DNA of 64,000 bases from Thermoactinospora rubra. Lineage in GTDB: Bacteria; Actinomycetota; Actinomycetes; Streptosporangiales; Streptosporangiaceae. The stretch covers positions 62,001 to 126,000 of the forward strand of contig NZ_MSZZ01000024.1 in NCBI RefSeq assembly GCF_002093975.1, read 5' to 3'. Both the position numbers and the translations under genes were made by a program. Below the pieces are notes generated by a model, which was given only the letters and a program-made list of their open reading frames with translations, made no database searches and was not told where the DNA came from. Positions 18,521 to 27,192 of this stretch are shown piece after piece (position 1 is the first letter of the stretch; each line of letters starts with the position of its first letter).

Positions 18521-18547
18521 CACCCGCGCCTCCCGGCACAAACACAA

Positions 18548-18586
18548 AGGGCGGCCGGATCGGCGAGATCGCCGACCGACCGCCCT
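18548..18586. terminator. Bidirectional hairpin between monooxygenase and ssrA copy 1
   Basis: AGGGCGG (18548-18554) pairs with CCGCCCT (18580-18586), enclosing a second stem TCGGCGA/TCGCCGA with small bulges. Read on the minus strand it is followed by TTTGTGTTTGTG, so it can terminate tmRNA copy 1 and also the monooxygenase transcript. Confidence 0.65.
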
Positions 18587-18621
18587 GCGGACGACCTGCC
18601 GCGCAAAGCGCGGAACGTCGG

Positions 18622-19006
18622 TGGAGGTAGCGGGAATCGAACCCGCGTCCTTCAACCCCAAATCAAGGCTTCTCCGGGCGCAGCCTGCTGGTCGCTTTTC
18701 TCAGCCCCGGCGCTCACGCAGGCAAGTCGCCGACAGGCTCAGCCACTGTGAGATTTCCCGGCAGCCCCCGTGGCCGGGGCTACCGGTTGAGCCTTCTAGT
18801 CGATGCCAGATCCTGAGCCGAAGGCGCTCTCAGGCTGACAGCGGGTCGCTGCGATCAGGCAGCGAGAGCCAGGGAGTCCTGGCTAACCGCAGTGCGCTTA
18901 GAGTTGGCACTTATTTGTCGCGGTCACAGGATTAACGAGGTTATGTCCGCCGTCCTCGGCCCGCTTCCCCTGACTTGCAAGGTCAAAGTCGAGACCAGTC
19001 ACCCCC
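18622..19006 (-). ncRNA. ssrA: tmRNA (ssrA), copy 1
   Basis: Transfer-messenger RNA that rescues stalled ribosomes. The 5' end GGGGGTGACTGGTCTCGAC and 3' T-arm GCGGGTTCGATTCCCGC form the tRNA-Ala-like domain with the G3-U identity pair. The reading frame from 18908 to 18855 encodes the tag ANSKRTAVSQDSLALAA followed by TGA. Compared with copy 2 it has two changes, both turning G-C into G-U pairs: acceptor position 7, and one pair in the long helix next to the tRNA-like domain (CCTTGATTTG instead of CCCTGATTTG). The 3' end is followed by CCG rather than an encoded CCA. The mRNA-like region is identical to copy 2. Confidence 0.95.
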
Positions 19007-19048
19007 TGTGGAGTTGTCAACACGCCTCACGAGGAGGTGCGCAGCAAG

Positions 19049-19078
19049 ACCATATTTTCCCAACACCGATGACGCCAA
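19049..19078 (-). promoter_or_regulatory. Promoter of ssrA copy 1
   Basis: Read on the minus strand: -35 TTGGCG (19073-19078), an 18-base spacer and -10 TATGGT (19049-19054), conserved in both copies. Initiation here would give a precursor with a 5' leader of about 35 nt for RNase P to remove. A closer -10-like GACAACT differs from GATAACT in copy 2. Confidence 0.5.
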
Positions 19079-19213
19079 CTCCATTCCCGCCCACGACATG
19101 ACTCCGCACCGTACGGCCGGGAATGACGGCGCCCCCTCCGAACGCCTTGGTCGCCGCAAAGCAGCCCCGCCGTGGCGCCAGCCGTACACCACGACCGTGC
19201 AGCGGCACCCACC

Positions 19214-19376
19214 AACGCCGGCAGCACCCAAGACAGCAACCCCTGAGGGGTGCCTCGGGCGTTCACGCCCGAGGCTGCGAGGGACGCGGCTCGGTCTGGA
19301 CTGAGGAGCGGTGAGGGCGCCCAGCGCCCGAGCCGCGACGAGGGAAGACCGAGCCTTCCCGGCGTCCCGAGCACCG
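19214..19376. other. Structured non-coding element, left copy
   Basis: A block of about 163 bases conserved at 26992-27155 although the sequence between it and ssrA has diverged. It holds a perfect 10-bp hairpin with TTCA loop (19252-19275), long-range arms CGCGGCTCGG (19285-19294) and CCGAGCCGCG (19328-19337), a nested GGGCGC-cca-GCGCCC, and GGGAAG/CTTCCC. No coding frame fits. It could be a small RNA, a regulatory leader or a dispersed intergenic repeat. Confidence 0.55.
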
Positions 19377-19380
19377 GCCG

Positions 19381-19749
19381 GAGCCGGCCCTGACACCCGA
19401 AGACTCGGCCGGCCTCCAGCCGCTCCCGCCCGAGCTGGTCTTCCCCAAGCACCTGCTGGACCGTTACGAGGCCAGGATCCTCGACCCCGCGACGGCCGAG
19501 CTGGACGCGGGCGAGACGCCGCCCGACTCCGCGGTCTACCGGGCGAGGGTGCTGCTCATCCCGGCCCGGCTGCTCGACGCCGACGGCCCGCAGCCCATCA
19601 TCAAGGAGGCCCTGGAGACCGTGGGCATGGCCGTCGTGGCGCACGACGGCCGGGGAGCCGGCGACGCCGGGCTCCGCTGGCGCGCCGTCCCCACCGGCCA
19701 TCCCGCACCCGGCCCGTCCAGATCACTCTCCTGGACCTGCCGGGAGTAG
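19381..19749 (+). pseudogene. Gene remnant, 5'-truncated at the edge of the repeat block
   Basis: An open frame with no plausible start begins at the repeat-block boundary: LTPEDSAGLQPLPPELVFPK, then RYEARILDPATAELDAG, VYRARVLLIPARLLDADGPQ and IIKEALETVGMAVVAHD, stopping at 19749. Codon use (third-position G/C) and composition look like real protein, not a shadow. The N-terminal part is missing and the last 25 or so residues look scrambled (PAPGPSRSLSWTC). It may descend from the N-terminal region of an actinobacterial S8-peptidase-type protein, but that match is from memory and weak. Insertion of the repeat block probably beheaded it. Confidence 0.45.
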
Positions 19750-19825
19750 CCCCACGAGACCTCCGCTGACGACCGGCCACCTGCGGACAACGGGTCTGGC
19801 CGGCCCTCCGGCCTGTCCGAGAAGG

Positions 19826-19864
19826 GAGCCGGGGTGGACCCGCGTACGAGACGCACCCCGGCTC
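19826..19864 (-). terminator. Terminator of the GH5 gene
   Basis: A perfect 11-bp stem, GAGCCGGGGTG (19826-19836) with CACCCCGGCTC (19854-19864), loop 17 bases, starting 18 bases beyond the GH5 stop on the minus strand. Confidence 0.65.
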
Positions 19865-19882
19865 AGCCGGAGGTCGTGGCGG

Positions 19883-22048
19883 TCAGAAGTCGTCGGGCGT
19901 TCTGAGACGCTCGCGAATCCAGACGCCGGCCTCCTTGAGGCGGCTCGTTCCGGCGAACGGGCCGTTCGGGCAGGTGCCGCCGGTGAAGACGGCGCCGGAC
20001 AGGTGGTCGTCGGAGTAGTTCCAGTTCACCCAGCTGATCTTCTTCTGGGCCATCAGGTCGAGGTACCGCTGCGACATCGTGAAGTCGTTGCCGCCCCCGC
20101 CCGACGCGGTCTGGGTGCCGAACTCCGACACGAAGACGGGGATCCGGTCCGCCGCCCGGGAGAGCGTGGCGAGGTACTGGTCGCCGTGCGAGGCCGCGTA
20201 GAAGTGGAAGGTGTACATGATGTTGGAAGCGTTGACCGGGTTGTTGACGACCTCGGTCTCGTTGCCGCCCTCGGACACGCCGAGCGACGACCAGGCGCGG
20301 GTGCCGACCAGGATCGGGGCGTCGGGGTCATGCTGGCGGATCACCGGGATGATCTGGTGCGCGTAGTCGCGGATCCTCGACCAGGACACGCCGCTGGGCT
20401 CGTTGGCGATCTCGTAGATGACGTTCTTCTTGGCGTTGTGCCGCTGCGTGATCTCGGTGAAGAACGTCCTCGCCCGGTCGAGGTTGTACATCGGGTCGCC
20501 GGGGGTCAGCATGTGCCAGTCGACGATCGCGTACATCCCACGCGCGGTGGCCATCTCGATCAGGTTGTGGACCCGATCGGTGAACATCCGCGGGTTGGTC
20601 TCGTAGCCGCCCTCTTGGATGTACATGGAGATGCGGAAGACGTCGGCCTTCCAGTCGGTGGCGAGCGCGTCGAGGGAGGCGGTGTTGAGGCACTGGTAAT
20701 ACCACTGGAGGCCGTGGCTGCTCATGCCGCGTAGCTGGATCTGCTTGCCGTGCTCGTTGCAGAGCTTGAGGCCGCACACCCGCAGCTGGCCGTTGGCCTG
20801 GACCGGGGTGCCGCCCCCGCCGCCGGGCTGGGTCGTGGCGGTCACGCTGTTGCTGGCCGCCGAGCGGTTGCCGGCCGCGTCCACGGCCTTGACCGTGTAG
20901 GTGTAGCCGGTCGAGGCGGCCAGGCCGCCGTCGGTGTGCGAGGTGCCCGACACCGTCGCCACCAGGCTGGAGCCGCGGAACACCTCATAGCCGGTGACGC
21001 CCGCGTTGTCGGTGGAGGCGTTCCACGCGAGGCTCACGCTGGAGGAGGTCGTGCCGGTCACGCGAAGGTTGCCGGGGGCGCTGGGCGGCGTGGTGTCGCC
21101 ACCCGGACTCTGGCCGTAGACCTCGAATTCCCACAGGGAGTAGCCGTAGGGGGTGCCGCGCTGCGTGCCGTACATCCGGACATAACGGCCGGACCCGGAC
21201 ACCGTCACATCGTCGGTCCCGCCGTCGCCGGAGGACGTCGAGAAGATGTCGGTCCAGGTCGAGCCGTCCGCCGAGGTCTGGATCCGGTAGGCCATGCCGT
21301 ACGCGGCCTCCCAGGTCAGCTTCACGCGCGTGATGGTCGCGGTGGAGCCGAGGTCGACGCGGAGCCACTCGGGATCGTGTCCTTCGGCGCTCGCCCAGCG
21401 CGTCGACGTGGTGCCGTCCACGGCCTTGGCCGCCTCGAACCCGGCGGCCTCGATCGAGGACGCGGTCGCGGGCTTGCCGCGGGACAGCAGCGTCTCCGAG
21501 CTGTCCGCCGGCGTCGTGGCGGTGACGCTGTTGCCGGCGGCCGACCGGTTGCCCGCCGCGTCCTTGGCCTTCACGGTGTAGGTGTAGCCGGTGGAGGCGG
21601 TCAGGCCGCCGTCGGTGTGCGAGGTGCCCGTCACCGTCGCCACCAGGGTGGACCCGCGATAGAGCTCGTAGCCCGTGACCCCGACGTTGTCGGTGGAGGC
21701 GTTCCACGCGAGGCTCACGCTGGAGGACGTCGTCCCGGTCACCCGCAGGTTCCCCGGTGCGTCGGGCGCTGTCGTGTCGCCGCCGCCCGAGCCGAGAGGC
21801 TTCCACAGCGACGCCGTGTTCGGCGGCTCCCAGCCGGGTTGCGAGGTGTGCGCCTGCAGGCACTCGTAATCGGTGCCGTTGTGGGTCACGCGGTCGCCCA
21901 CGGCGTACGGCACTCCCGCCTGCCAGGCCGGATAGGCGACCGTGGCCGAGGCGCCGCCGATCGCGTGGGCACCGGTTCCCGGCGTGATGAGCATGCCTAA
22001 GGACAGGACCGTTGCCGCGATCAGCTTCCCGAAGGTTCTTCCCTTCAT
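19883..22048 (-). CDS. Secreted modular GH5 endoglucanase with carbohydrate-binding and FN3 domains
   Basis: A 721-residue secreted cellulase. Order: signal peptide (1-29); CBM5/12-type domain (about 37-86, YPAWQAGVPYAVGDRVTHNG); FN3 (about 93-178); F5/8 type C or CBM32-like domain (about 187-312, RWASAEGHDPEWLRVDLG); second FN3 (about 318-405), nearly identical to the first; Gly-rich linker; GH5 catalytic domain (about 420-715). The acid/base is Glu near 550 (IYEIANEPSG) and the nucleophile Glu near 642 (VFVSEFGTQ), which marks a retaining beta-1,4-glucanase. It is divergent from a GH9 cellulase with two palindromic operators between, so both are probably induced together. Confidence 0.92.
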   Translation of the reverse strand: MKGRTFGKLIAATVLSLGMLITPGTGAHAIGGASATVAYPAWQAGVPYAVGDRVTHNGTDYECLQAHTSQPGWEPPNTASLWKPLGSGGGDTTAPDAPGNLRVTGTTSSSVSLAWNASTDNVGVTGYELYRGSTLVATVTGTSHTDGGLTASTGYTYTVKAKDAAGNRSAAGNSVTATTPADSSETLLSRGKPATASSIEAAGFEAAKAVDGTTSTRWASAEGHDPEWLRVDLGSTATITRVKLTWEAAYGMAYRIQTSADGSTWTDIFSTSSGDGGTDDVTVSGSGRYVRMYGTQRGTPYGYSLWEFEVYGQSPGGDTTPPSAPGNLRVTGTTSSSVSLAWNASTDNAGVTGYEVFRGSSLVATVSGTSHTDGGLAASTGYTYTVKAVDAAGNRSAASNSVTATTQPGGGGGTPVQANGQLRVCGLKLCNEHGKQIQLRGMSSHGLQWYYQCLNTASLDALATDWKADVFRISMYIQEGGYETNPRMFTDRVHNLIEMATARGMYAIVDWHMLTPGDPMYNLDRARTFFTEITQRHNAKKNVIYEIANEPSGVSWSRIRDYAHQIIPVIRQHDPDAPILVGTRAWSSLGVSEGGNETEVVNNPVNASNIMYTFHFYAASHGDQYLATLSRAADRIPVFVSEFGTQTASGGGGNDFTMSQRYLDLMAQKKISWVNWNYSDDHLSGAVFTGGTCPNGPFAGTSRLKEAGVWIRERLRTPDDF

Positions 22049-22210
22049 CGTCCTTCTTCCTGTTGGGGGTGAGGATCACGGTCAGGGCACCCCGTGGTCA
22101 CCCGTCACCTTGATCATGCCTGGAGCTGGGACCAGCCCCGCCACCAGGGGTGTCGCCGAGGCCAGGAGGGCCGATGGGGCTCGGAGGTCCGCTTTGCAGG
22201 CAACGCCTGT

Positions 22211-22231
22211 AGTTAAGAAAATTTCCTAACT
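22211..22231. promoter_or_regulatory. Palindromic operator, GH5-proximal
   Basis: A 21-bp palindrome with AGTTAaGAAA and TTTCcTAACT around a central A; one of ten pairs is mismatched. It matches the site at 22364-22384. It is probably the binding site of the ROK repressor encoded at 24303-25496, inferred from position and the AT-rich core usual for this family. Confidence 0.65.
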
Positions 22232-22363
22232 TTGGTGCGGAGCGTAGGTGCCCGCCGGTCCGCGTGCAAGACCCAAACTCGACCGGCCGCGCCCATGCAG
22301 GCCAATGTCACAGCTTGGTCGCCGCTCTTGACCCTCCGGTGATGACTTCGTAGCTTCGAGGCA

Positions 22364-22384
22364 AGTTAGGAAGATTTACTAACT
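22364..22384. promoter_or_regulatory. Palindromic operator, GH9-proximal
   Basis: A 21-bp palindrome, AGTTAGGAAG and TTTACTAACT around a central A, with two mismatched pairs. With 22211-22231 it gives a consensus close to AGTTAGGAAA and TTTCCTAACT arms. It lies 48 bases before the GH9 start. Confidence 0.65.
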
Positions 22385-22432
22385 ATTGATCGAAGGTGTC
22401 GTAAGCGTTTTGACCTGACCTAGGAGGATCCG

Positions 22433-24259
22433 GTGAGAAAACCGCTCGCGGCAGGCTTAGCCCTGGCCGCCCTGACCATGGGGAGCCCCGCCCTGGCCGT
22501 GCCGACGCCCGCCGGCTTCGTCCGGGTCGACCAGGTGGGCTTCGCGCCCGGCGAGGCCAAGCACGCCTCCTTCATGTCCGAGACGTCCGCCGCCGGCGCC
22601 CGATTCGTGGTCGTCGACCGTCGTGGCCACGTGGTCCTCCAGGGTACGGCCGGCCGCGATCTGGGGCCGTGGAACGCCAGGCATCCCCACGTCTACGACC
22701 TGGACCTGAGCTCGCTCCGTCGACCGGGCAGCTACCGGATCAAGGTGGGCGCCGCCACGTCGGCCGAGTTCGAGGTGGCGCCGCCCCAGGCGTTCGCCCG
22801 GCACGCGGCCAAGGTGATCACCTTCTTCGGGCGCCAGCGCGACGGCGCCGACGCCCTGCGCGAGCCCAGCCACCTCAACGACCGGGCGGCCTCCGTCTAC
22901 GAATGGCCGGTTTTCAGCGGCCTCGGCACCGACCAGATCAAGGGCGAGCTGACCAGGATCGGCGGGCCGGTCGACGTGGAAGGCGGCTGGTTCGACGCGG
23001 GCGACTACCTGAAGTTCACGCACATCCTGGCGTACGTCGACACGCTCCTCTGGGCAGCCAAGCGGGATGGCAATCACGATCCCCGCCTCTGCCACGAAGC
23101 CACCCACGGCCTGAAATATCTGGACAAGATGTGGGATGAGGCGTCCAAGACGCTCTACATCCAGGTGGGCATCGGAGCGGGTAACGCCGAGGGCACGTTC
23201 GTCGGCGACCACGACATCTGGCGCCTGCCCGAGGCCGACGACCACGACACCGCCCCCGGCCACCAGTTCATCCGCCATCGCCCCGTCTTCCGCGCCGCTC
23301 CCCCCGGTGAGCCCATCAGCCCCAACCTGGCGGGCCGTACGGCTGCCGCCTTCGCGCTGGCCGCCCAGGTCGAGCCTTCCCGCGCCCGGGCCCGACGCCT
23401 GCTGGAGCAAGCCGCCTCCATCTACGCCATGGCCAAGACCACGGACGTGGGCGAGTTGGTCACCTCGCTCCCGCACGCCTTCTATCCGGAGAGCGTGTGG
23501 CGCGACGACATGGAGCTGGGCGGGGCCGAGCTAGCACTCGCGGCATTGCGCCTGGGCGACCCCCGGGCCTCGCAGTGGCTGTCCCAGGCGGCTCACTGGG
23601 CCTCGCAGTACATGGAGCACGAGGCCGGTGACACCCTGAACCTCTACGACGTCAGCGCCCTGGCCCACGCGGACCTCGCGCGGGCGCTGCGGAAGGCGCG
23701 CGCCACCGGCCTGGCCGTCACCGAGGCGGACCTGATCGGCGGCCTCAAGGCCCAGCTGGAAACAGGGGCCCGGCGTGCGTCGGCGGACCCCTTCCGCGCC
23801 GGCGCGCACTACGACCAGTTCGACTCCGTGCCCCACGCCTTCGGGCTGGCCGCCACGGCCCGGCTGTACCGGGACCTCACCGGGGACCGCTCCTACGATC
23901 CCTTCGGCACCGCGCAGCGCAACTGGGCGCTGGGCGGCAACGCCTGGGGCGTCTCCTTCGTCGCGGGGGTCGGCGACAACCCCATCCAGTGCCCGCACCA
24001 CCAGATCGCCAACCTCACCGGCGAACCCGCCGTGGGCGCGGTGGTCAACGGTCCGAACAGCTCCTCGCTGTTCGACGACGGCCTGGGCGGCCACTTCGAG
24101 GAGATGACCAGGTGCCCGGCCGACGGCGTCGACCGCTACGAGCCGTTCACCGGACGCGGCAGCCGCTTCGTGGACGACGTGCGCTCCTGGCAGGCCTCCG
24201 AACCGGCCGACGACTTCGCCGCGATCGCCCTCTACGCGCTCACCTTGCACTCGCGCTAA
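22433..24259 (+). CDS. Secreted GH9 cellulase with N-terminal Ig-like domain
   Basis: A 608-residue inverting endoglucanase of the Ig-GH9 type. Signal peptide to about residue 22; CelD_N-type Ig-like domain (about 26-115, FVRVDQVGFAPGEAKHASF); GH9 catalytic domain (about 125-605). Catalytic residues: Asp188 and Asp191 in GGWFDAGDYLKF, and the general acid Glu590 in WQASEPADD. There is no carbohydrate-binding module, unlike the divergent GH5, so the pair may be complementary. The GTG start is preceded by AGGAGG at 22422. The ROK regulator gene follows 43 bases downstream, probably in the same transcript. Confidence 0.92.
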   Translation: MRKPLAAGLALAALTMGSPALAVPTPAGFVRVDQVGFAPGEAKHASFMSETSAAGARFVVVDRRGHVVLQGTAGRDLGPWNARHPHVYDLDLSSLRRPGSYRIKVGAATSAEFEVAPPQAFARHAAKVITFFGRQRDGADALREPSHLNDRAASVYEWPVFSGLGTDQIKGELTRIGGPVDVEGGWFDAGDYLKFTHILAYVDTLLWAAKRDGNHDPRLCHEATHGLKYLDKMWDEASKTLYIQVGIGAGNAEGTFVGDHDIWRLPEADDHDTAPGHQFIRHRPVFRAAPPGEPISPNLAGRTAAAFALAAQVEPSRARARRLLEQAASIYAMAKTTDVGELVTSLPHAFYPESVWRDDMELGGAELALAALRLGDPRASQWLSQAAHWASQYMEHEAGDTLNLYDVSALAHADLARALRKARATGLAVTEADLIGGLKAQLETGARRASADPFRAGAHYDQFDSVPHAFGLAATARLYRDLTGDRSYDPFGTAQRNWALGGNAWGVSFVAGVGDNPIQCPHHQIANLTGEPAVGAVVNGPNSSSLFDDGLGGHFEEMTRCPADGVDRYEPFTGRGSRFVDDVRSWQASEPADDFAAIALYALTLHSR

Positions 24260-24302
24260 CGTGAGCTGCTGGGATGTCGGACCGCCCATGACGTGAGGTG
24301 AC

Positions 24303-25496
24303 GTGAAGACCCCGATGCCCGGAACACCGAGCCTGCTGCGCGCGATCAACGACCATGCCGCGCTGCGGGTCCTGCTGGAGCGCGGCCCGCTGACCCGCCC
24401 GCAGATCGGCGAGCTCACCGGGCTGTCGAAGCCGACAGCGTTCCAGTTGCTCGCCCGCCTGCAGGCGGCGGGGCTGGTGATCCGCGACGGGGTCAGGTCC
24501 GGGCAGCCTGGCCGGGTGGCGGAGACCTACCGCATCAACCCGGCCGCCGCCTACGTCGCCGCCCTCGACGTCACGCCCGAGGGCATTGCGGCCCGGGTGG
24601 CCGACATCACCGGCGCCACCGTGGGCGAGCACGAGCTGCCCACGCCCCGCCGGCCCGCGGACAGGCTCGTCGAGCGCCTCCAGGCCGCCCTCGAGGGGGC
24701 GGCCGCCCCAGGGCCGCTGCGCCGCGTGGTCATCGGCGTGCAGGGAGCGCTCGACCCGACCACGGGCGAGCTGGGCTACGCCACCGCCGGCGACATGCCG
24801 GGCTGGCAGATCCCCAACCTGGTGTCCACGCTCAGCGAGGAGCTCGGCGTGGCGGTCGACGTCGAGAACAACGTCAACCTCGCCGCGCTGGCCGAGCAAG
24901 CGCACGGTGTGGCGGCCGGCTGCTCCGACTTCGTCCTGCTGTGGGCCGACGAGGGGCTCGGCGCGGCGCTCGTCATCAACGGCCGGCTGCATCGCGGCGT
25001 CACCGGAGGCGCGGGTGAGGTGGGCTACATGCCCACCCCCGGCGCCCCGACGGCTCGCGACACCGGGCCGCTGGCCAACCACGGCTACCAGGCGCTGGTC
25101 GGCGGCCCCGCCGTACGCGACCTGCTCCGGTCGTACGGCGTGCGCAGCCACGACTTCCAGCGGGCGGTCGCCACGGCGGTCCGGCTGGCCGAGCAGGGAT
25201 CCGGCGCCAGGGCGGACGACGCGCGAGCGGGGCTGCGTGTCGTGGCCGCCCGGCTGGCGCTCGGCCTGGCCTCCATCACATCGGTCGTCGATCCCGGGCT
25301 CATCGTCCTGGCGGGTGGCGTGCCCCAGGCCGGCGGCGAGCTGTTGCGGGATCTCGTCGAACGCGAGCTCTACGCGCTCACCATCCCGCGGCCGCAGGTC
25401 CGCCTGTCGGCCGTCGAAGGCAACCCGGTGCTCGCCGGCGCCCTGAGCCTCGCCCTCACCACGGTTCGCGACGAGATCTTCGGCGCCGCGCTGTAG
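24303..25496 (+). CDS. ROK-family transcriptional repressor
   Basis: A 397-residue ROK regulator: N-terminal winged helix (about 10-65, LERGPLTRPQIGELTGLSKPTAFQLLARLQAAGLV) and a C-terminal sugar-kinase-like sensor domain (about 80-395, with VVIGVQGALDP and GRLHRGVTGGAGEVGYM). The zinc motif CxCGxxGC normal in ROK proteins is absent after GEVGYM, as in many regulators that no longer phosphorylate sugars. The GTG start lies 43 bases after the GH9 gene. It probably represses both cellulase genes through the two palindromes between them and is relieved by a cello-oligosaccharide. The ligand is inferred. Confidence 0.88.
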   Translation: MKTPMPGTPSLLRAINDHAALRVLLERGPLTRPQIGELTGLSKPTAFQLLARLQAAGLVIRDGVRSGQPGRVAETYRINPAAAYVAALDVTPEGIAARVADITGATVGEHELPTPRRPADRLVERLQAALEGAAAPGPLRRVVIGVQGALDPTTGELGYATAGDMPGWQIPNLVSTLSEELGVAVDVENNVNLAALAEQAHGVAAGCSDFVLLWADEGLGAALVINGRLHRGVTGGAGEVGYMPTPGAPTARDTGPLANHGYQALVGGPAVRDLLRSYGVRSHDFQRAVATAVRLAEQGSGARADDARAGLRVVAARLALGLASITSVVDPGLIVLAGGVPQAGGELLRDLVERELYALTIPRPQVRLSAVEGNPVLAGALSLALTTVRDEIFGAAL

Positions 25497-25701
25497 CGCG
25501 ACCCTTCTTTGGAGCGGTCCTTTTCGCATGACCGGGCCGCTGACAGAAGGCAGCCCTGCTGTAAAGAGCGATTGTTCCCGAAACCAGGGGACGATCTTTG
25601 ATAAGGATCGGCTTCGACACCGTGGGAACTCACGCCTCATTGTTATGCCGCGGCACAGTCAACGGCCGCGAAAGGCACCCCCCCGAAGACAGGCAGGCCC
25701 C

Positions 25702-26223
25702 ATGGTCAGACGCTCCCTCGCCGTCGTCACGCTCTCCTTCGCGACCTTATCCGGATTAACGCTACCCGCATACGCGGTGACGCTTGAGCAAAAACTCGCC
25801 GCGCTTTCCAGCTTCACCCAGCCCACCTCGGCCAGCTTCTCCAGCTGGCGCTCGGCCTGGGAGAACCAGGCGGCGTGGGCCGATTACGCCTTCGACTGGT
25901 CGACCGACCTGTGCAGCAGCAGCCCCGACCAGCCACTCGGCTTCGACTTCAGAATGCCGTGCCGGCGCCACGACTTCGGATACCGCAACTACAAGGCCGT
26001 GAACCGGTTCCCGGAGAACAAGGCGCGCGTGGACGACGCTTTCTACTTCGACATGCGCCAGGTCTGCGCCAGATACTCCGGCGCCTCCAGATCCACGTGC
26101 AACAGCGTTGCGTGGACCTACTACCAGGCGGTCAGGCAATTCGGCGACCTCAACGTCAGCGAGGCCGAGATCGAGCAGATCCGCCAAACGGCCGAACAAT
26201 CCCACGAGAACACGGACGCCTGA
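25702..26223 (+). CDS. Secreted prokaryotic phospholipase A2
   Basis: A 173-residue secreted protein with a signal peptide to about residue 25 and a prokaryotic PLA2 domain. The catalytic pair is His90-Asp91 in PCRRHDFGYRNY; four cysteines (71, 87 and two near 115-125) are placed for two disulfides. It cleaves the sn-2 ester of phospholipids outside the cell. The ATG at 25702 is chosen because it begins the signal peptide; an in-frame ATG at 25645 would add a basic extension before it. The 205 bases upstream of 25702 show no other gene. It ends at a perfect hairpin terminator. Confidence 0.88.
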   Translation: MVRRSLAVVTLSFATLSGLTLPAYAVTLEQKLAALSSFTQPTSASFSSWRSAWENQAAWADYAFDWSTDLCSSSPDQPLGFDFRMPCRRHDFGYRNYKAVNRFPENKARVDDAFYFDMRQVCARYSGASRSTCNSVAWTYYQAVRQFGDLNVSEAEIEQIRQTAEQSHENTDA

Positions 26224-26240
26224 CCGATCCGGCACGAACC

Positions 26241-26270
26241 ACGGTCCTCTCGGTGTTGCGAGAGGACCGT
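26241..26270 (+). terminator. Terminator of the phospholipase A2 gene
   Basis: A perfect 12-bp stem, ACGGTCCTCTCG (26241-26252) with CGAGAGGACCGT (26259-26270), loop GTGTTG, 17 bases after the stop codon. Confidence 0.75.
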
Positions 26271-26323
26271 GACGCGCGTCGCGACACGGCCGGCGCGTCC
26301 ACGACGCCGGCGGCGGACACGAA

Positions 26324-26365
26324 ACCGCCCCTGGCCCGCCGATGTCTCGGCGGGCCAGGGGCGGT
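26324..26365 (-). terminator. Terminator of ssrA copy 2
   Basis: A perfect 17-bp stem with arms 26324-26340 and 26349-26365 and an 8-base loop, six bases beyond the tmRNA CCA end. On the minus strand the hairpin is followed by TTTC. This sequence is not shared with copy 1. Confidence 0.8.
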
Positions 26366-26371
26366 CTGATG

Positions 26372-26759
26372 TGGTGGAGGTGGCGGGAATCGAACCCGCG
26401 TCCTTCAACCCCAAATCAGGGCTTCTCCGGGCGCAGCCTGCTGGTCGCTTTTCTCAGCCCCGGCGCTCACGCAGGCAAGTCGCCGACAGGCTCAGCCACT
26501 GTGAGATTTCCCGGCAGCCCCCGTGGCCGGGGCTACCGGTTGAGCCTTCTAGTCGATGCCAGATCCTGAGCCGAAGGCGCTCTCAGGCTGACAGCGGGTC
26601 GCTGCGATCAGGCAGCGAGAGCCAGGGAGTCCTGGCTAACCGCAGTGCGCTTAGAGTTGGCACTTATTTGTCGCGGTCACAGGATTAACGAGGTTATGTC
26701 CGCCGTCCTCGGCCCGCTTCCCCTGACTTGCAAGGTCAAAGTCGAGACCAGTCACCCCC
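26372..26759 (-). ncRNA. ssrA: tmRNA (ssrA), copy 2, canonical position
   Basis: A second complete tmRNA gene with the same 5' end, mRNA-like region and ANSKRTAVSQDSLALAA tag as copy 1. Acceptor pair 7 is G-C and the long helix pairs fully (CAAGTCAGGG with CCCTGATTTG), and CCA is encoded at 26372-26374. It lies downstream of smpB on the same strand, the usual actinobacterial location, with only the PBP-like gene between. It is therefore probably the ancestral gene and copy 1 the derived one. The promoter is conserved upstream, and its own 17-bp terminator follows. Confidence 0.97.
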
Positions 26760-26802
26760 TGTGGAGTTATCAACACGCCTCACGAAGAGGCGCGCAGCAA
26801 GA

Positions 26803-26832
26803 ACCATACTTTCCCAACACCGATGACGCCAA
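26803..26832 (-). promoter_or_regulatory. Promoter of ssrA copy 2
   Basis: Minus strand: -35 TTGGCG (26827-26832), 18-base spacer, -10 TATGGT (26803-26808). A closer -10-like GATAACT begins about 12 bases before the mature 5' end and reads GACAACT in copy 1, so copy 1 may have lost one initiation signal. Confidence 0.5.
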
Positions 26833-26991
26833 CTCCATTCCCGCCCACGACATGACTCCGCACCGTACGGCCGGCTGACCCTTCCGACCGTCCCCGGTGG
26901 CCGCGAAGCCGTCTTGGCCGTACACCACCTCGCCCCGGCCGAGGCCAGCACAAAGGACAGAGCAGTGGTACCCCACCAACCAACGCCTGCA

Positions 26992-27155
26992 AACGCCGGC
27001 AGAACCCAAGACAGCAACCACTGAGGGGTGCCGAGGGCGGTCAACGCCCGAGGCCGCGAGGGGCGCGGCTCGGTCTGGACTGAGGAGCGGTGAGGGCGCC
27101 CAGCGCCCGAGCCGCGACGAGGGAAGACCGAGCCTTCCCGGCGCCCCGAGCACCG
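26992..27155. other. Structured non-coding element, right copy
   Basis: Counterpart of 19214-19376. The CGCGGCTCGG/CCGAGCCGCG arms, the nested GGGCGC hairpin and GGGAAG/CTTCCC are preserved. The first hairpin is altered: GCCGAGGGCG faces CGCCCGAGGC. Conservation across a diverged spacer suggests function or an independent repeat family. Confidence 0.55.
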
Positions 27156-27192
27156 TCGCGCCGCCAGGCGCGACAAATCAACAGAGACGAAT

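Follow-up and report, generated by a model that had tools for sequence, protein, structure and literature searches.

Two near-identical tmRNA genes in direct repeat around accessory genes in an actinomycete genome

The window, i.e., the whole 64,000-nt stretch of Thermoactinospora rubra DNA analysed here, contains two full-length tmRNA genes (ssrA) on the minus strand, for which the calls of ARAGORN and of the Rfam model RF00023 (gathering score 47) agree. The features of the locus are listed in Table 1. Each copy covers positions 1-374 of the RF00023 model and encodes the tag ANSKRTAVSQDSLALAA in a frame ending in LAA, as read by ARAGORN. In the Rfam alignment, the acceptor stems of the two copies are GGGGGUG/CACCUCC and GGGGGUG/UACCUCC, and the alanine identity pair G3-U70 is present in both. 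The copies form a direct repeat with a start-to-start distance of 7753 nt, which bears out the earlier note on this DNA, where two complete ssrA genes with the same tag had been described on one strand, 7.75 kb apart.

Table 1. Features of the paired ssrA locus, in window coordinates.
Feature	Coordinates	Strand	Basis or remark
Copy 1 terminator, not related to the copy 2 terminator	18534..18618	-	3′ flank alignment
ssrA copy 1, extra tmRNA gene, end CCG not CCA	18619..19006	-	Rfam RF00023, 152.3 bits
Copy 1 promoter with processed leader	19007..19120	-	about 114 bp; 4 substitutions and 1 indel relative to copy 2
Diverged spacer of copy 1	19121..19213		counterpart at copy 2 is 26875-26991
U at copy 1, truncated, without terminal hairpin	19214..19376		its last segment matches no better than sequence drawn at random from the window
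S8-peptidase-like gene fragment	19381..19749	+	44-51% identity to N-termini of Nonomuraea proteins of ~550-600 aa
GH5 cellulase with CBM5/12, FN3 and F5/8C domains	19883..22048	-	Pfam
GH9 cellulase with CelD_N	22433..24259	+	Pfam
ROK-family regulator	24303..25496	+	Pfam
Prokaryotic phospholipase A2 (PLA2)	25528..26223	+	Pfam PF09056, 1.4e-34
Terminator of copy 2, genus-common ssrA type (GACCGCC...GGGGCGGTTT)	26323..26371	-	3′ flank alignment
ssrA copy 2, native tmRNA gene, CCA encoded	26372..26759	-	ARAGORN; Rfam RF00023, 163.1 bits
Copy 2 promoter with processed leader (GTTGGCGT ... TATGGT, leader hairpin, TTGATAACTCCACA)	26760..26874	-	same blocks before ssrA in most of 47 aligned relatives
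U at copy 2, complete, plus 25 bp of common flank	26992..27188		13 related genome copies; alignment

The gene bodies differ at three of 388 nt (0.8%; 99.2% identity). Two of the differences are internal (18666/26419 and 18629/26382) and retain pairing as G-C to G-U changes in the Rfam alignment, while the third is the last base. Since the last bases of ssrA differ widely across the Nonomuraea alignment, where CCA is not always encoded, the CCG end of copy 1 is not taken as a sign of a defect. The next best matches to the Rfam tmRNA model in the 8.2-Mb genome are short and under the cut-off, and the sub-threshold matches at C18:62079 and C18:80878 are tRNA-Ala-like. Judged from sequence, both tmRNA genes are genuine and probably functional, and would both be transcribed. 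As the copies differ neither in tag nor in structural features, the extra gene would probably change only the dosage of tmRNA.

The promoter and leader blocks recognised by alignment with 47 relatives are conserved at both copies, and the leader hairpin of copy 1 has one mismatch. Homology between the copies ends at the 3′ end of ssrA, beyond which each gene has a terminator of its own. That of copy 1 resembles the terminators found after ssrA in two relatives (G048 and G023) and after tRNA-Ala(GGC) in G047 and G032, and copy 1 is a complete unit of promoter, leader, gene, and stable-RNA-type terminator. Terminators of this family (window 18534-18618; L108, L109, L110) were observed to be common to tRNA-Ala(GGC) and ssrA genes across Nonomuraea. 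An assignment of the copy 1 terminator to the FAD gene was rejected, as G022, G031, and G016, which encode the closest relatives of the FAD protein, gave no match.

Upstream of the promoters, the spacers (~93 bp at copy 1 and 117 bp at copy 2) are weakly alignable, scoring better than 1995 of 2000 shuffles, and are followed by a structured repeat, here called U, whose two copies (19214-19376 and 26992-27155) are about 95% identical. U is a GC-rich dispersed repeat, about 125-160 nt long and present 13 times in this genome (L124-L134 among the loci), that has a core of TCTGGACTGAGGAG ... CGACGAGGGAAGA and the end AACACAG. The earlier note had regarded gene, promoter, and structured element as one repeated unit. 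The duplication of gene and promoter stands, whereas the spacer has diverged and the structured element, a dispersed repeat that is truncated at copy 1, is not part of ssrA. Among the compared genomes, U lies beside ssrA only in this genome, and it does so at both copies, which also have in common 25 bp of flank outside U. These shared neighbours argue that U and ssrA were duplicated together, and the truncation of U at copy 1 points to this copy as the derived one.

The tmRNA gene is nearly always present in a single copy in bacteria. In the genus sample, comprised of 55 genomes with Nonomuraea species as the relatives, two ssrA genes occur in this genome alone. A strong tmRNA match was obtained in 333 of 343 GTDB family genomes, none of which except the present one has a second ssrA, and an even sample of the class (about 669 distinct genomes) yielded two genomes with a pair, this one and G407. 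The great rarity that had been supposed for paired ssrA is therefore upheld, and the refuting case named in the earlier note, in which every relative has these two loci, does not apply to the family sample. In G407, the second tmRNA-like gene (G407:C3:130901-131262) is clearly different from the first (118 versus 146 bits) and lies on another contig; ARAGORN makes no call at the same place.

With regard to the native locus, the gene order ftsE, ftsX, smpB, MecA-like transpeptidase, ssrA is found in each of the 46 Nonomuraea stretches where ssrA is complete. Each of these relatives has one copy, and the content downstream of the gene varies too much for an empty site to be defined. In the window, the order smpB/MecA-like/ssrA occurs at copy 2 only. 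Owing to this synteny with the 46 placed relatives, copy 2 is identified as the ancestral locus and copy 1 as the extra gene. A further relative, G011 (L080, C24), has the same gene order on a contig that stops inside ssrA, possibly at an assembly break in a repeat; no second ssrA was found in this genome. The tag of the present genome is unique among the compared relatives, so that no sampled species qualifies as the donor. On this ground, and because the best ssrA identity to relatives is about 88%, horizontal transfer from one of the sampled relatives was rejected as the origin.

The direct repeat flanks 7.3 kb of accessory genes, largely of the secreted-enzyme kind, and this interval does not stand out in base composition. 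The gene next to the truncated U lacks an in-frame start codon after the stop at 19312, in agreement with its earlier description as beheaded, but its C-terminal ~430 aa are missing as well. Pfam detects no domain in this fragment, and its assignment to S8 peptidases is a reading from full-length relatives. The other listed genes, GH5, GH9, ROK, and PLA2, were all recovered by Pfam, and no integrase, recombinase, or transfer gene was identified among the interval genes, as had been claimed for integrases. In G041, a relative of the GH5 gene (72%) sits downstream of ssrA at a distance of 11 kb, and relatives of PLA2 occur in 41 of the 55 genus genomes, far from ssrA wherever the position of ssrA is known. 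The cargo reads as a set of ordinary accessory genes, and the idea that it had been captured is an overstatement for content so generic.

Comparisons of sister species show that the 3′ end of ssrA is a hotspot of gene turnover in Nonomuraea. In such pairs (L059/L052, L083/L048, L041/L040, L066/L059, L044/L066, and L076/L074), conservation is complete over the 4.5 kb before ssrA, and the alignment often breaks off no more than 2 bases from the 3′ end of the gene to resume with an offset of 1.4-11 kb, although breaks of this kind can partly reflect fast divergence of the terminator, e.g., in L066/L065. Those inserted genes that were checked by Pfam have metabolic or regulatory functions and are not integrases. 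In G020 (L083), a sequence matching the terminator that directly follows ssrA in G044 (L048) is located 1.1 kb downstream of ssrA, as if an insertion had been caught precisely at the 3′ terminus of the gene.

The two copies have not diverged evenly. Promoter and U together differ at about 14 of 277 positions (about 5%), compared with the three changes in the gene (Fisher p = 0.0007). Had one copy been free to drift at the 5% rate of the flanks, or at half that rate, 10 to 19 changes would be expected (Poisson 0.013 to 5e-6). As the gene has diverged far less than its flanks, both copies seem to be maintained by purifying selection or homogenised by gene conversion. A strong claim of conversion was softened, since species pairs in the genus with 98-99% identical ssrA may also have strongly different spacers, and purifying selection alone can explain the excess identity of the RNA body.

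Taken together, the reading preferred here, which is given an even chance, is that of two genuine, probably functional ssrA genes, of which copy 1 arose by duplication or exchange at the ssrA 3′ hotspot, with selection and/or conversion keeping the bodies nearly identical. In detail, the block of U, promoter, and ssrA would have been duplicated, probably within the lineage, or exchanged with a close sister lineage, as the unique tag suggests, and recombination at the ssrA 3′ end would have produced copy 1 as a complete second unit. This event would have left the direct repeat around the accessory genes, after which purifying selection and/or gene conversion would have acted on both RNA bodies. 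Recombination between the repeats could also delete the interval. An origin by duplication or recombination, as proposed in the earlier note, is thus likely, whereas a single recent and uniform segmental duplication is ruled out by the different terminators and the diverged spacer.

Several other explanations account for part of the same evidence. A plain illegitimate duplication, in which the 758-bp block of U, promoter, and ssrA was copied 7.7 kb downstream and the hotspot was not involved, agrees with the truncation of U at one end, the common lineage-specific tag, and the divergence of about 5% in the flanks; it is nevertheless fairly unlikely, as the block must have landed directly before a stable-RNA-type terminator and ended exactly at the 3′ end of the gene. 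That precise end of homology, the stable-RNA or ssrA type of both 3′ flanks, and the accessory genes in the interval would all suit the remnant of an integrative element with an entire ssrA on board, which entered by site-specific insertion at the ssrA 3′ end and later lost its integrase. Such a remnant is unlikely, considering that no integrase or transfer gene was identified among the interval genes, that such an ssrA was not found in the phage, non-chromosomal plasmid, or viral contigs searched, and that repeats of the ssrA 3′ end of at least 16 nt are absent from the interval, with one unrelated 16-nt match in relatives. A search for att repeats with exact 16-mers and ungapped 30-mers of the ssrA end gave nothing convincing. 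It is also conceivable, but quite doubtful, that a segment without a recombinase carries a complete, functional ssrA and uses it for homologous recombination to pass from one Nonomuraea chromosome to another, each integration leaving two working genes that are homogenised by conversion like those of rRNA.

Copy 1 might instead be a decaying pseudogene, for which its lower model score, CCG end, and leader-hairpin mismatch could be cited. This is very unlikely for a gene with a promoter and a terminator that has accumulated three changes while its flanks changed by about 5%, in a genus where CCA is not always encoded. Finally, a duplicated or misjoined repeat in the assembly is suggested by the near-identity of the gene bodies across some 350 nt and by a genome in 113 contigs. 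An artefact of this type is highly improbable, given the copy-specific substitutions, promoters, spacers, and terminators and a contig that runs on for tens of kb on both sides; in particular, a simple assembly duplicate would not be expected to differ in the ~100-bp spacer and in both outer flanks.

Second ssrA alleles have already been reported (PMC4131195), and those genomes likewise have more than one full tmRNA gene. The present copies are distinguished by their 99.2% identity and by their arrangement as a direct repeat 7.75 kb apart with accessory genes between them, whereas the second tmRNA of G407 is clearly different and lies on another contig. Islands at ssrA normally duplicate only the 3′ end of the gene; in the vcr islands of Dehalococcoides this amounts to about 20 bp, and an integration module is present in many of them (PMC3146451). 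The locus resembles them in having accessory genes beside the 3′ end of ssrA and in the ssrA sequence that borders the interval on either side. It differs in that the entire gene and its promoter are duplicated, as the earlier note had held in setting it apart from an att repeat of the 3′ end, and in that neither an integrase or recombinase in the interval nor a partial 3′-end duplication at its distal end was seen. Phage-borne tmRNA genes, known from Bacillus phage G and mycobacteriophages (PMC4131195), similarly provide the host cell with an additional complete ssrA, but the interval showed no recognisable phage gene, and no similar ssrA was found in the phage and viral collections searched. 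The pair is a rare and unusually clean case of a known phenomenon, and the second gene looks like a by-product of recombination rather than a new system. As a natural, near-identical direct-repeat pair, it is a useful case for tmRNA dosage and for concerted evolution in an RNA gene other than those of rRNA and tRNA, informs how blocks of genes are gained and lost next to ssrA where no integrase is evident, and calls for caution with island-finding software that assumes partial ssrA repeats.

U itself is possibly an undescribed mobile or regulatory element. An Rfam search with U returned no match, and weaker relatives of it occur in 18 other Nonomuraea genomes. One of these, from another species, has a perfect tandem array of U, comprised of 4.3 units of 116 bp (L135 1155-1652).
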